64,000 nucleotides of DNA, taken from NCBI RefSeq assembly GCF_009371975.2, contig NZ_VIKT02000007.1:1-64000 (forward strand). The letters run 5' to 3'. The notes below the pieces were generated by a model. That model was not told where the DNA came from. It was given only the letters and a program-made list of their open reading frames with translations, and did not search any database. Position 1 is the first letter of the stretch. Each line of letters opens with the position of its first letter. This document shows, in pieces, positions 43,637 to 55,613 of the stretch. The DNA comes from Microcella pacifica (lineage in GTDB: Bacteria > Actinomycetota > Actinomycetes > Actinomycetales > Microbacteriaceae). The translations under genes were made by a program, and so were the position numbers.

Positions 43637-43935
43637 GATCTGATCTCCTCGGCCCGCGAGGGCTGCGACGACGGAAGGGAAAGCTGTCTGCCACGGTCGA
43701 CGACGAGCGCAGACAGAAGTCAACCGGTTAACAATAGGTCCGCCGGGTCGGGCGGTCAAACCGTACAGCGCGAGGGCGAACATTATCCCCATGATCACGC
43801 TGATCGTTGGTCACGACATGCCCGGTCGAACTACAGTAGGCAGACGGTCCGCAACTCGCCCGCGAGCAGCCCAGGCTGCACGCCTCCTGCCGGCCAGCCC
43901 CCTTCACGACCACACCAGAGATGAGGACATCCGTC
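43637..43935. promoter_or_regulatory. rpmH-dnaA divergent promoter region
   Basis: These 299 bases hold the rpmH and dnaA promoters and no gene. A DnaA-box-like TTATCCCCA lies at 43783-43791 and could take part in dnaA autoregulation. No further clear box is seen. Confidence 0.6.
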
Positions 43936-45348
43936 ATGACGGACGACACTGAGTCACCACAGGAGCTGTGGAACTCAGTGCGCACCGCGCTGACAACGGA
44001 TGAGCGCATCACGCCGCAGCTGCACGGGTTCATCAACCTCGTCGAGCCGCGCGGCATCATGGCGGGCACCCTCTACCTCGAAGTGCCGAACGAGCTCACG
44101 CGCGGCATGCTCGAGCAGCGCATCCGGTTGCCCCTCCTCACCGCCCTCACGACCGTCGCCGGCGACAACGTCTCGAGCTTCGCGATCGTCGTGAACCCCG
44201 AGATCCAGAACGAGGGCCTCGAGGCCTCCCTCGAGACGACCGACTCCTCGGCCCCCTACATCGAGCAGTCGACCACCCCGCCGCCGAGCGAGGCGGGCGG
44301 GCGCCGCGGTGACAGCCGGCTCAACCCCAAGTACAGCTTCGACAACTTCGTCATCGGCGGCTCCAACCGGTTCGCCCACGCCGCGGCCGTCGCCGTCGCG
44401 GAGGCCCCCGCGAAGGCGTACAACCCCTTGTTCGTCTACGGGGAGTCCGGGCTCGGCAAGACCCACCTCCTGCACGCGATCGGGCACTACGCCGAGAGCC
44501 TCTACCCGGGCATTCGCGTGCGGTACGTCTCGAGCGAGGAGTTCACGAACGACTTCATCAACTCGATCGCGAACAACCGGGCCAGCGTCTTTCAGTCGCG
44601 CTACCGCGAGATCGACATCCTGCTCATCGACGACATCCAGTTCCTGCAGGGCAAGGACTCGACGCAGGAAGCGTTCTTCCACACCTTCAATACGCTGCAC
44701 GACCACAACAAGCAGGTCGTGATCACGAGCGACCTGCCGCCCAAGCACCTCACGGGGTTCGAGGACCGCATGCGCAGCCGCTTCGAGTGGGGTCTCATCA
44801 CCGACGTGCAGGCGCCCGACCTCGAGACCCGCATCGCGATCCTGCGCAAGAAGGCGCAGAACGACCGCCTCCAGGTTCGCGACGACGTGCTCGAGTACAT
44901 GGCCTCGAAGGTGTCGAGCAACATCCGCGAGCTCGAGGGCACGCTGATCCGCGTCACCGCGTTCGCCAACCTCAACCGCACGCCCGTCGACCTGCAGCTC
45001 GTGCAGACCGTCCTCAAAGACCTCATCACTCTCGATGAGGACAATGTCATCGCGCCGGTCGACATCATCAACCACACCGCGGCCTACTTCAAGCTCACGG
45101 TCGACGACCTCTACGGGTCGTCCCGCTCGCAGGCCGTCGCGACCGCGCGCCAGATCGCGATGTACCTGTGCCGTGAACTCACCAACCTCTCCCTCCCCAA
45201 GATCGGTCAGCTGTTCGGCAACCGAGACCACACCACGGTCATGTACGCGAACAAGAAGATCAGCGAGCTCATGAAGGAGCGCCGGTCGATCTACAACCAG
45301 GTCACCGAGCTCACGAGCCGCATCAAGCAGAACAACCGCTACAGCTGA
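43936..45348 (+). CDS. dnaA: Chromosomal replication initiator DnaA
   Basis: The 470-residue initiator has domain I (about 1-90), a short linker and an AAA+ domain. The AAA+ domain shows Walker A YGESGLGKTHLLH, Walker B LLIDDIQFL and the domain IV DNA-binding signature GNRDHTTVMYANKK. The ATG at 43936 is favoured by GAGG upstream; an ATG five codons earlier is possible. The linker domain is short compared with Streptomyces DnaA. Confidence 0.96.
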   Translation: MTDDTESPQELWNSVRTALTTDERITPQLHGFINLVEPRGIMAGTLYLEVPNELTRGMLEQRIRLPLLTALTTVAGDNVSSFAIVVNPEIQNEGLEASLETTDSSAPYIEQSTTPPPSEAGGRRGDSRLNPKYSFDNFVIGGSNRFAHAAAVAVAEAPAKAYNPLFVYGESGLGKTHLLHAIGHYAESLYPGIRVRYVSSEEFTNDFINSIANNRASVFQSRYREIDILLIDDIQFLQGKDSTQEAFFHTFNTLHDHNKQVVITSDLPPKHLTGFEDRMRSRFEWGLITDVQAPDLETRIAILRKKAQNDRLQVRDDVLEYMASKVSSNIRELEGTLIRVTAFANLNRTPVDLQLVQTVLKDLITLDEDNVIAPVDIINHTAAYFKLTVDDLYGSSRSQAVATARQIAMYLCRELTNLSLPKIGQLFGNRDHTTVMYANKKISELMKERRSIYNQVTELTSRIKQNNRYS

Positions 45349-50886: not shown

Positions 50887-53483
<2,597 letters not shown>

Positions 53484-53487
<4 letters not shown>

Positions 53488-53967: not shown

Positions 53968-54041
53968 GGGGATATAGCTCAGGCGGTTAGAGCGCTTCGC
54001 TGATAACGAAGAGGTCCGAGGTTCAAGTCCTCGTATCCCCA
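53968..54041 (+). tRNA. tRNA-Ile (anticodon GAT)
   Basis: A complete cloverleaf has the acceptor GGGGATA/TATCCCC, anticodon loop CTGATAA and T-loop TTCAAGT. CCA is not encoded. It follows DUF3566 and precedes tRNA-Ala, the common gyrA-tRNA-Ile-tRNA-Ala order. Confidence 0.97.
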
Positions 54042-54051
54042 CGCATTGTCT

Positions 54052-54078
54052 GTCACGCCGCCGCTTCTGCGGCGTGAC
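54052..54078 (+). repeat. Post-tRNA hairpin, copy 2
   Basis: GTCACGCCGC and GCGGCGTGAC pair perfectly (10 bp) around loop CGCTTCT. The wider 43-bp block 54050-54092 recurs at 54257-54299 with one mismatch. It starts 11 bp after tRNA-Ile. Confidence 0.8.
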
Positions 54079-54175: not shown

Positions 54176-54248
54176 GGGGCCTTAGCTCAATTGGTAGAGC
54201 GCCTGCTTTGCAAGCAGGAGGTCAGGAGTTCGATTCTCCTAGGCTCCA
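54176..54248 (+). tRNA. tRNA-Ala (anticodon TGC)
   Basis: A complete cloverleaf has the acceptor GGGGCCT/AGGCTCC with one G-T pair, anticodon loop TTTGCAA and T-loop TTCGATT. CCA is not encoded. A T6 run and the second 10-bp hairpin follow directly. Confidence 0.97.
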
Positions 54249-54258
54249 CGTTTTTTCT

Positions 54259-54285
54259 GTCACGCCGCCGCTTCTGCGGCGTGAC
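54259..54285 (+). repeat. Post-tRNA hairpin, copy 3
   Basis: This copy has the same 10-bp stem and CGCTTCT loop as the copy after tRNA-Ile. It starts 11 bp after the tRNA-Ala end, with T6 between. The T-run lies before rather than after the stem, so it is not a standard intrinsic terminator. Confidence 0.8.
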
Positions 54286-54445
54286 GTCGCTTCCGCGAGA
54301 CGAGCGCGGTCGTCTCGCTTTGCGGTGCGGCTCACCCTGCTGGGGCACAGCGCGCTCATGCTCGACGCGCGACCGCATGCTTTGCGGTGCACAGGCACTG
54401 CTCACGGAGGCGTGCCACTCTGGGGCGCGAGCCCGAGCGGGGCTC

Positions 54446-54485
54446 CCGGACGAGGCATCCCGTACCCGGACAGCGACAAGACGGG
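54446..54485 (+). promoter_or_regulatory. Guanidine-III riboswitch
   Basis: The 40-nt element contains CCGGACGAGG, then CCCGTACCCGG, then ACAAGACGGG. These match the conserved blocks of the guanidine-III (ykkC-III) class described from Thermobifida. CCCGT can pair with ACGGG as in the class pseudoknot. The ribosome site GAGGAG of gdx follows 3 nt later, so ligand binding would act on translation. The downstream gene is the expected exporter. Confidence 0.88.
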
Positions 54486-54501
54486 TCGAGGAGACTGCGT
54501 C

Positions 54502-54828
54502 ATGTCGTGGATCATTCTGGTGGCATCGGGGATGCTCGAAGCCGTCTGGGCAACGGCCCTCGGCGAGTCGAAAGGCTTCACCCGGGTTGGGCCGACCATC
54601 GTGTTCGGCGTTGCCCTCGCCCTCAGCATGGTGGGCCTGGCCTACGCGATGCGCGAGATACCCACGGGCACGGCCTACGCCGTGTGGGTAGGCATCGGCG
54701 CAGGGCTCACCATCATCTGGGCTATGCTCACCGGCGCCGAGACCGCCTCGGTCATCAAGATCGTGCTCGTGCTCGGCATCGTGGCGTGCGTCGTCGGGCT
54801 CAAGTTGGTGAGCGACGCCGGAGCCTGA
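54502..54828 (+). CDS. gdx: Guanidinium exporter Gdx (SugE, SMR family)
   Basis: The 108-residue four-span SMR protein has the conserved membrane Glu in the first helix (ASGMLEAVWATAL) and the GTAYAVWVGIGAG motif of the Gdx/SugE branch. Gdx exports guanidinium in exchange for protons. The riboswitch directly upstream confirms the assignment over drug-exporting EmrE types. The ATG at 54502 follows GAGGAG. Confidence 0.92.
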   Translation: MSWIILVASGMLEAVWATALGESKGFTRVGPTIVFGVALALSMVGLAYAMREIPTGTAYAVWVGIGAGLTIIWAMLTGAETASVIKIVLVLGIVACVVGLKLVSDAGA

Positions 54829-54907: not shown

Positions 54908-55486
54908 TCAGGGCTTGGCGGAGGTCTCCACGGGAACACCATCGTCTTCGGCCTCGACCCACAGGTCGTCGTCGGCGCGCAGCGTCTGCCACGCGGCGTA
55001 GGCGATACCGGCGGCGGCGACGACGCCGAGCCCGATGAGGATGTAGGTGCCGGGGCCGGGCTTGGGCTTGACCTCGATGAGTCCGACGCGCTGACCGGCC
55101 TTGGTCGCGAGCTCGCGACCGGACGCGGATGCTGACTTGAGGGCATCCCGCAATTGCTTGTTGCGCGCGATGTCGAGAACCGCGATCGCCGACCCGAGGG
55201 CGCCGGAGACAGCAGGGAGAACGTCGTCGGTGAACTTATCGCGAGTCGCGCTCGCAGCGGAGCGCACCGAGCCGACGCCGGCGTCGATTCCCGGCTGCAC
55301 GCGCTTCTCGTAGGCGCTCTTCACGCGGGGCGCGACATCATCGCGCGCGACGGTGGCAGCTTCGCGGCTCGCAGCACGCAGAACCTTTGCGGCGTGCTCG
55401 AGGACTTCGCGCTGCTCACTCCAGACATCCGACGCCGACCCACGGAGCTTCTTGATGTCGCGACGGCGCTTGCGTGACAGTCCCAT
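54908..55486 (-). CDS. Hypothetical helical protein with C-terminal membrane span
   Basis: The 192-residue protein has a basic start (MGLSRKRRRDIKKLRGSA). A long Ala/Lys/Glu-rich helical region with apolipoprotein- or stress-protein-like periodicity (about 20-140) follows. It ends in one span (TYILIGLGVVAAAGIAYAAW) and an acidic tail. GGAGG lies 9 nt before the ATG at 55486, which decides against the in-frame ATG at 55495. It is convergent with gdx. No family is recognised. Confidence 0.6.
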   Translation of the reverse strand: MGLSRKRRRDIKKLRGSASDVWSEQREVLEHAAKVLRAASREAATVARDDVAPRVKSAYEKRVQPGIDAGVGSVRSAASATRDKFTDDVLPAVSGALGSAIAVLDIARNKQLRDALKSASASGRELATKAGQRVGLIEVKPKPGPGTYILIGLGVVAAAGIAYAAWQTLRADDDLWVEAEDDGVPVETSAKP

Positions 55487-55613
55487 GGTCTTCATCCTCC
55501 AGCAGGTGGCGATCGGTGACCTGTCCATCCTGGCACTGATGCGGAAGGCTCCCCAACGGCACAGACCGAATGCTCAGGATTCCCCCCGAGTCGAGCGTGG
55601 AAGAATAGACGGC

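Follow-up and report, generated by a model that had tools for sequence, protein, structure and literature searches.

Riboswitches of the guanidine-III class (ykkC-III, RF01763) occur chiefly in actinobacteria and in association with efflux genes, according to a review (PMC12186494), and another source names emrE and speB among the genes that ykkC-III precedes (PMC2864571), genes of the gdx/emrE type being a known association of the class according to both. The ligand contacts of guanidine-III RNA are reported as nucleotides C6, G7 and G17, and the source that gives them proposes that the ligand, once bound, disfavours alternative folds and makes the ribosome site accessible (PMC5696562). On the side of the exporter, residues E13, W16, S42, Y59 and W62 are described for Gdx-Clo, with Trp16 as the Gdx-Clo residue at a position held by Gly or Ala in the Qac subtype (PMC7695847).

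The window, that is, the whole 64,000-nucleotide stretch of DNA analysed, contains an ordinary guanidine-III/gdx unit, a clear example of this known kind. The covariance model RF01763 matches positions 54426 to 54489 of the forward strand over the full length of the model (1-67) with 54.2 bits (E = 2e-8 in the 64 kb window), exceeding the gathering cut-off of 36 by 18 bits in the very check that the first-pass annotation had proposed, and at E ≤ 0.001 this is the single guanidine-III match in the 2.72 Mb genome of 62 contigs. The same annotation had placed all conserved blocks within 40 nt and the ribosome site 3 nt beyond them, and both statements hold: the core spans 54446-54485, its first base coinciding with the start given there, and the Shine-Dalgarno sequence AGGAG occupies 54489-54493, 3 nt past the core end at 54485, which is also the last paired base of P2. 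The interval then drawn leaves out the 5′ P0 hairpin (54429-54445), which is part of the Rfam model.

The aptamer comprises (i) the P0 hairpin, GAGCCC-GAGCG-GGGCUC, on the forward strand, read from the Rfam structure line and from folds, and (ii) an H-type pseudoknot core (54446-54487, forward strand), delimited by mapping the sequence to the numbering of Huang et al. 2017 (PMC5696562). The conserved blocks follow one another in the order CCGGACGAGG from 54446, GUACCCGG at 54462-54469 and GCGACAAGACGGG at 54473-54485, with zero mismatches to the core pattern. Both pseudoknot helices are present, P1 with four pairs (54446-54449 with 54466-54469) and P2 with five (54459-54463 with 54481-54485), the latter followed by two non-pairs, 54458/54486 and 54457/54487. 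All three ligand-contact nucleotides are conserved, C6 being the C at 54451, G7 the G at 54452 and G17 the G at 54462. Judged by these sequence features, the element is almost certainly a guanidine-III riboswitch functioning as an ON switch, and a response to guanidinium is predicted, guanidine being a toxic compound. The P0 hairpin appears in folds of 54426-54489, 54426-54520 and 54400-54540, and is not formed in a plain fold starting at 54421, where the stretch pairs otherwise.

The gene directly downstream, gdx (54502-54828, forward strand, with ATG at 54502 and the stop at 54828), encodes a predicted SMR-family guanidinium exporter of 108 residues. Its product matches the Pfam family Multi_Drug_Res (PF00893) with 65.6 bits against a cut-off of 23.7, which places it in the SMR family, and carries the Gdx-type residues E13, W16, S42, Y59 and W62 that it shares with Gdx-Clo, which places it in the Gdx subtype. 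Among solved structures, those closest to the product are 8vxu (E = 3.5e-17) and 6wk5 (E = 3.6e-17, aligned over 104 residues), the latter presumably Gdx-Clo, and the EmrE structure entries rank behind them at E = 1.7e-7 or weaker, bearing out the earlier assignment of a Gdx exporter at this place. The protein differs from its subtype in matching the NCBIfam equivalog model SugE below the cut-off (90.1 versus 126 bits), although this is the best of the 20 NCBIfam models listed; the low score bars the name SugE and does not bar the Gdx subtype. Among the best Gdx matches in a named collection are two Microcella alkalica genomes, with 78 and 80% identity, which makes a Microcella-like member of the Microbacteriaceae the probable source. 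As gdx is the sole SMR match in the genome at E ≤ 0.001, the locus adds one clear riboswitch/exporter pair, with no second guanidine-III RNA or SMR pump found in the genome.

Comparable units are widespread in the family. A guanidine-III RNA match occurs in 145 of 299 family genomes (137 of the 299 above the cut-off) and in 51 of 396 genomes across the phylum (42 above the cut-off); the 29 phylum loci, many of them on the reverse strand, enter no count. The family search returned 146 matches and 141 were analysed, those left out (G226, G139, G107, G265:C2 and G096) all lying below the Rfam cut-off; a further locus, L172, was missed by the core pattern, giving 140 loci, and a gdx homologue stands directly downstream in 130 of them. 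Dropping L068, where the start was misplaced by the script, and L133, with its 47-nt spacing, leaves 128 loci for the energy tests. Within the genus, gdx was found in 11 of 26 genomes (8 of 19 when completeness is 90% or more), preceded by the riboswitch core in 11 of 11. Among the best 80 relatives, two gdx genes are without a core match at up to five substitutions, one locus, L230, fitting just the looser of the two patterns used; riboswitch-free gdx genes are thus too few for a control set, and second SMR genes and other open reading frames were used in that role.

Of the 128 family loci, 117 have A-U as pair 16-37, 10 have C-G and one has a non-pair there, and the first pair of P1 is C-G in 91, G-C in 36 and G-U in one; by fixed offset, pair 14-39 is canonical in 74, pair 12-41 in 109 and pair 13-40 in a single locus. 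The P0 hairpin reaches at least four pairs in 127 of the 128 loci, but shuffles form similar pairs (483 of 600), and it was set aside as evidence by itself. A further reading takes the aptamer as a decayed or non-functional relic, to which the five pairs and two end non-pairs of P2, set against seven pairs in the Thermobifida fusca crystal RNA, would lend some colour, as would the 15 of 26 genus genomes in which gdx was not found (11 of the 19 at least 90% complete). Such decay is very improbable given the score well above the cut-off, the exact core pattern, the intact ligand contacts and the open exporter frame; moreover, the absence of a pair between positions 13 and 40 is a family rule and no peculiarity of the window. 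A functional riboswitch is by far the preferred reading.

Several family loci display other arrangements. In nine of the ten loci without gdx, the guanidine-III-like RNA stands before a membrane protein of approximately 82-105 residues (L083, L098, L110, L136, L147, L159, L161, L162 and L173); two of the proteins were tested against profiles, and both hit the NCBIfam model for the CBU_0592 family membrane protein (L110 with 37.1 bits and L162 with 42.2, the cut-off being 25) and nothing in Pfam; the remaining seven were assigned by visual inspection. A variant core, with GACGACG replacing GACAAGACG, is carried by L147, L159, L161, L162 and L173, five of the nine. The membrane-protein loci possibly comprise a guanidine-linked gene that is not commonly mentioned in connection with the class, or else an aptamer with a changed ligand. 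Elsewhere, L293 (genome G074) has one in-frame stop in gdx behind an intact-looking riboswitch, and at L152, which looks degenerate, no intact gdx was found after the guanidine-III core. A second SMR gene starts 200-600 nt after the first in 35 of the 128 loci, forming a tandem behind one guanidine-III RNA, as in L113, L126, L127, L149, L155 and L170.

The surroundings of the window's unit agree with the first-pass annotation, which had located it in the origin region right after two tRNA genes: DnaA (43921-45348) is followed by DnaN, a RecF-like SMC_N protein and GyrB, then GyrA (50887-53487), a DUF3566 protein, tRNA-Ile(GAT) at 53968-54042 and tRNA-Ala(TGC) at 54176-54249, both tRNA genes found on the forward strand by the tRNA scan. 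The one-gene unit claimed there is plausible insofar as the next long reading frame, 54908-55528, lies on the other strand; that this frame is itself a gene receives no profile support, no Pfam or NCBIfam family matching it at E ≤ 0.001. The tRNA genes are context and not mechanism, because six of the 11 genus gdx genes occupy this gyrA-tRNA place, following tRNA-Ile and tRNA-Ala (the window, L284, L285, L286, L288 and L289), and five lie elsewhere. The latter five display a different P2 of the A-U type; tRNA-Met is close by on the other strand at three of them (L287, L291 and L292), the genome of L293 has one 2.9 kb downstream (at L097), and at L290 the tRNA scan covered the first 1600 bases. 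A tRNA neighbourhood as a general rule was ruled out, with gyrA near 3 of 140 family loci, in stretches of mostly 6 kb on each side, and 15 of the 140 having a tRNA no more than 3 kb away. The same 27-nt hairpin, with a 10-bp stem and -18.6 kcal/mol, follows both tRNA-Ile (54052-54078) and tRNA-Ala (54259-54285); these are the only two copies in the genome within three mismatches, without a T-run behind either, and may be duplicated signals for termination or for tRNA 3′ processing.

An extended -10-like element of the form TGnYAnnnT, TGCCACTCT at 54413-54421 on the forward strand, would put the transcript start just before P0, from which we infer a leader that begins at about P0 and does not depend on transcription of the tRNA genes. 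Among the 128 family loci, 60 have the motif at a distance of 50 to 21 bases upstream of the core, its first base mostly falling at -37 to -31; 20 shuffles gave a mean of 3.0 and at most 7. In the window the motif is present in a weak form, it is absent from L059, the window's nearest relative, and a scan for generic sigma-70 or consensus promoters and terminators found nothing.

A plain fold of the leader brings the aptamer strand GCGACAAGAC (54473-54482) into pairing with GUC-AUG-UCG-U across the start codon, while GGUC pairs with GACU at the Shine-Dalgarno end, so that AGGAG lies in the loop except for its last G. The resulting candidate OFF hairpin (54473-54508, forward strand) has 14 pairs and -17.9 kcal/mol when the segment is folded alone, is also obtained in longer folds, and comprises the stem GCGACA/UGUCGU, an A·A mismatch, GACG/CGUC, GGUC/GACU and the loop GAGGA. 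P2 and this hairpin are mutually exclusive because both use the same strand. From a short leader starting near P0, at the putative promoter, the switch would operate as follows: (i) without guanidine, GCGACAAGAC, which supplies one strand of P2 and some of the ligand core, would pair over the start codon, and the adjoining GGUC with GACU, leaving the ribosome site in a hairpin loop and the start codon buried; (ii) with guanidinium bound, the same strand would be locked into the pseudoknot with its triple helix; and (iii) the start region would then be free and the exporter made. Taken as a whole, the explanation that a guanidine-III riboswitch turns on translation of the Gdx exporter by way of such an OFF hairpin is probable. 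The hairpin was first noticed in the fold of the window and then tested on relatives, whose sequences were already visible before the test was designed. Its outer stem, GCGACA/UGUCGU, forms in 11 of 11 genus gdx start regions folded alone, these loci being closely related and nearly identical there.

The family comparison reveals a constraint on the sequence around the start codon. The triplet GTC occupies positions -3 to -1 in 90 of 130 riboswitch-gdx genes, compared with 19 of 584 control reading frames from the same loci with a Shine-Dalgarno site, the controls being script-called frames of at least 200 codons as distinct from annotated genes, and the start codons being assigned by a script that uses frame, alignment and Shine-Dalgarno score. 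It persists in 24 of the 39 representatives that share less than 75% protein identity and in 51 of 77 when the limit is 85%; of the 35 SMR genes that stand second at a gdx locus, one has it before any of its candidate starts. The second codon encodes Ser in 75 of 128 gdx genes and is then TCN in every case (75:0), compared with a TCN:AGY ratio of 592:265 for the other Ser codons of these genes (p = 8e-12) and of 28:43 for Ser2 of control genes; in the 39 representatives the figures are 21:0 versus 172:84 (p = 7e-4). A broader reading offers itself, namely that in this family the aptamer needs no separate expression platform, the invariant GCGACAAGAC being itself the anti-start strand and the gdx start GUC-AUG-UCN, with its TCN codon for Ser2, being held by selection to pair with it; we regard this as slightly less probable than its opposite.

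The constraint around the start codon is left unexplained by an account in which the riboswitch acts mainly through RNA stability, the ligand-bound, folded aptamer blocking RNase E as it scans from the 5′ end and so protecting the gdx mRNA, with the start-codon hairpin secondary or accidental. Protection from RNase E is reported for guanidine-III in a review that cites Richards and Belasco 2021 (PMC12186494), and the predicted transcript start lies close to the aptamer, as this account would have it. As the main mechanism, it is rather unlikely; stabilisation and the OFF hairpin can act together, and sequestration of the start region is here preferred as the principal one.

Energy calculations, made on secondary structure without pseudoknot or ligand, speak for the OFF hairpin too. 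In the window, opening positions -13 to +3 costs 14.9 kcal/mol when the RNA is free to fold and 5.8 when the core plus 4 nt is kept unpaired, a core-dependent masking of 9.1 kcal/mol, compared with a mean of 2.0 in natural control contexts and reached by 2 of 60 controls. Over the 128 loci, masking averages 6.5 kcal/mol versus 2.3 in control contexts; it is stronger than the mean of the controls for the locus concerned in 114 of them and, among the 39 representatives, in 33 (p = 9e-7, P-values taking no account of remaining relatedness). The 6.15 kcal/mol of the representatives drops to (i) 2.9 when the core is shuffled (own higher in 31 of 39), (ii) 3.0 with control linkers (own higher in 32 of 39), and (iii) 3.7 with control codons 2-4 (own higher in 32 of 39). 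Averaged over the family, the pairing probabilities make the expected partner at -3 to +5 the likeliest one for eight of the nine CGACAAGAC bases (mean probability 0.32-0.51), the exception being the A opposite the first base of the start codon.

Other results are less favourable to the hairpin. Taken singly, 55 of 128 loci reach p ≤ 0.05, and position -4 has little complementarity to the aptamer strand in the family comparison. Locus-specific covariation of linker and aptamer was looked for and not found, start contexts borrowed from other riboswitch loci being equally effective (24 of 39 representatives, p = 0.20); true covariation cannot be shown here because the pairing strand is invariant. 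Outside the family, own masking exceeds control in 23 of 38 loci, with a mean of 3.4 versus 2.0 (p = 0.044), a small effect measured against control contexts taken from the family's genes, the loci being drawn from 40 relatives placed outside the family by taxonomy, four of them MAGs that lack a genus name, with L206 and L226 skipped for long spacing. GTC precedes the start in 17 of these 38, and in 42 of the 78 with a core among the best 80 named relatives, family included.

The most direct objection comes from published in-line probing by others on T. fusca RNA, in which, as summarised in PMC5696562, P1 and P2 are uncleaved without guanidine and just the third strand, A5-G12, changes, so that the authors take P1 and P2 as duplexes under all conditions. 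Since the OFF state needs P2 to be open and the published probing has it formed, the standing of the specific hairpin at 54473-54508 in the cell, a model prediction, was lowered from somewhat favoured to evenly balanced. The alternative that follows keeps P2 formed with and without ligand and moves only the third strand, some other competitor, e.g., a local linker hairpin, hiding the Shine-Dalgarno sequence, and GTC having another cause; the linkers do vary between loci, some containing strong local hairpins such as GGTCCgaaaGGACC in L116, and GTC is a minority outside the family. This arrangement is a serious possibility that nevertheless falls short of being probable, as it has to accommodate the rarity of GTC before other genes of the same genomes (the 19 in 584 given above) and the fact that the predicted masking needs the true core, falling by more than half when the core is shuffled. 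The opening of P2 into the start-codon hairpin keeps its place as the leading candidate for the OFF state, at even odds.

If this OFF state is right, the gdx coding sequence would itself be part of the switch, and a synonymous change of codon 2 should weaken regulation while aptamer and protein stay intact. If it is wrong, the GTC and TCN constraint at the start codons needs another cause.

Compared with the T. fusca guanidine-III riboswitch (crystal structure 5NWQ), the window's element preserves the P1/P2 pseudoknot core, the C6, G7 and G17 contacts and the place before the ribosome site, and differs in its shorter P2, with two of the seven crystal pairs replaced by non-pairs. The two also differ in spacing: the Shine-Dalgarno sequence is 16 nt away in T. 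fusca (PMC5696562), whereas in the window it follows 1 nt after the base matching the 3′ end of the crystal RNA, and this short distance is what allows the aptamer strand to reach the start codon. In its predicted logic the element resembles the add adenine riboswitch type, in which the ligand likewise prevents a hairpin that hides the ribosome site and start codon (PMC10907184); the aptamers are unrelated, and in the window the sequestering strand is predicted to come from within the aptamer core. Where the sources cited here name no particular competing structure or refer to Shine-Dalgarno access, the comparison would give the guanidine-III class a specific OFF state, one that is cheaply tested.
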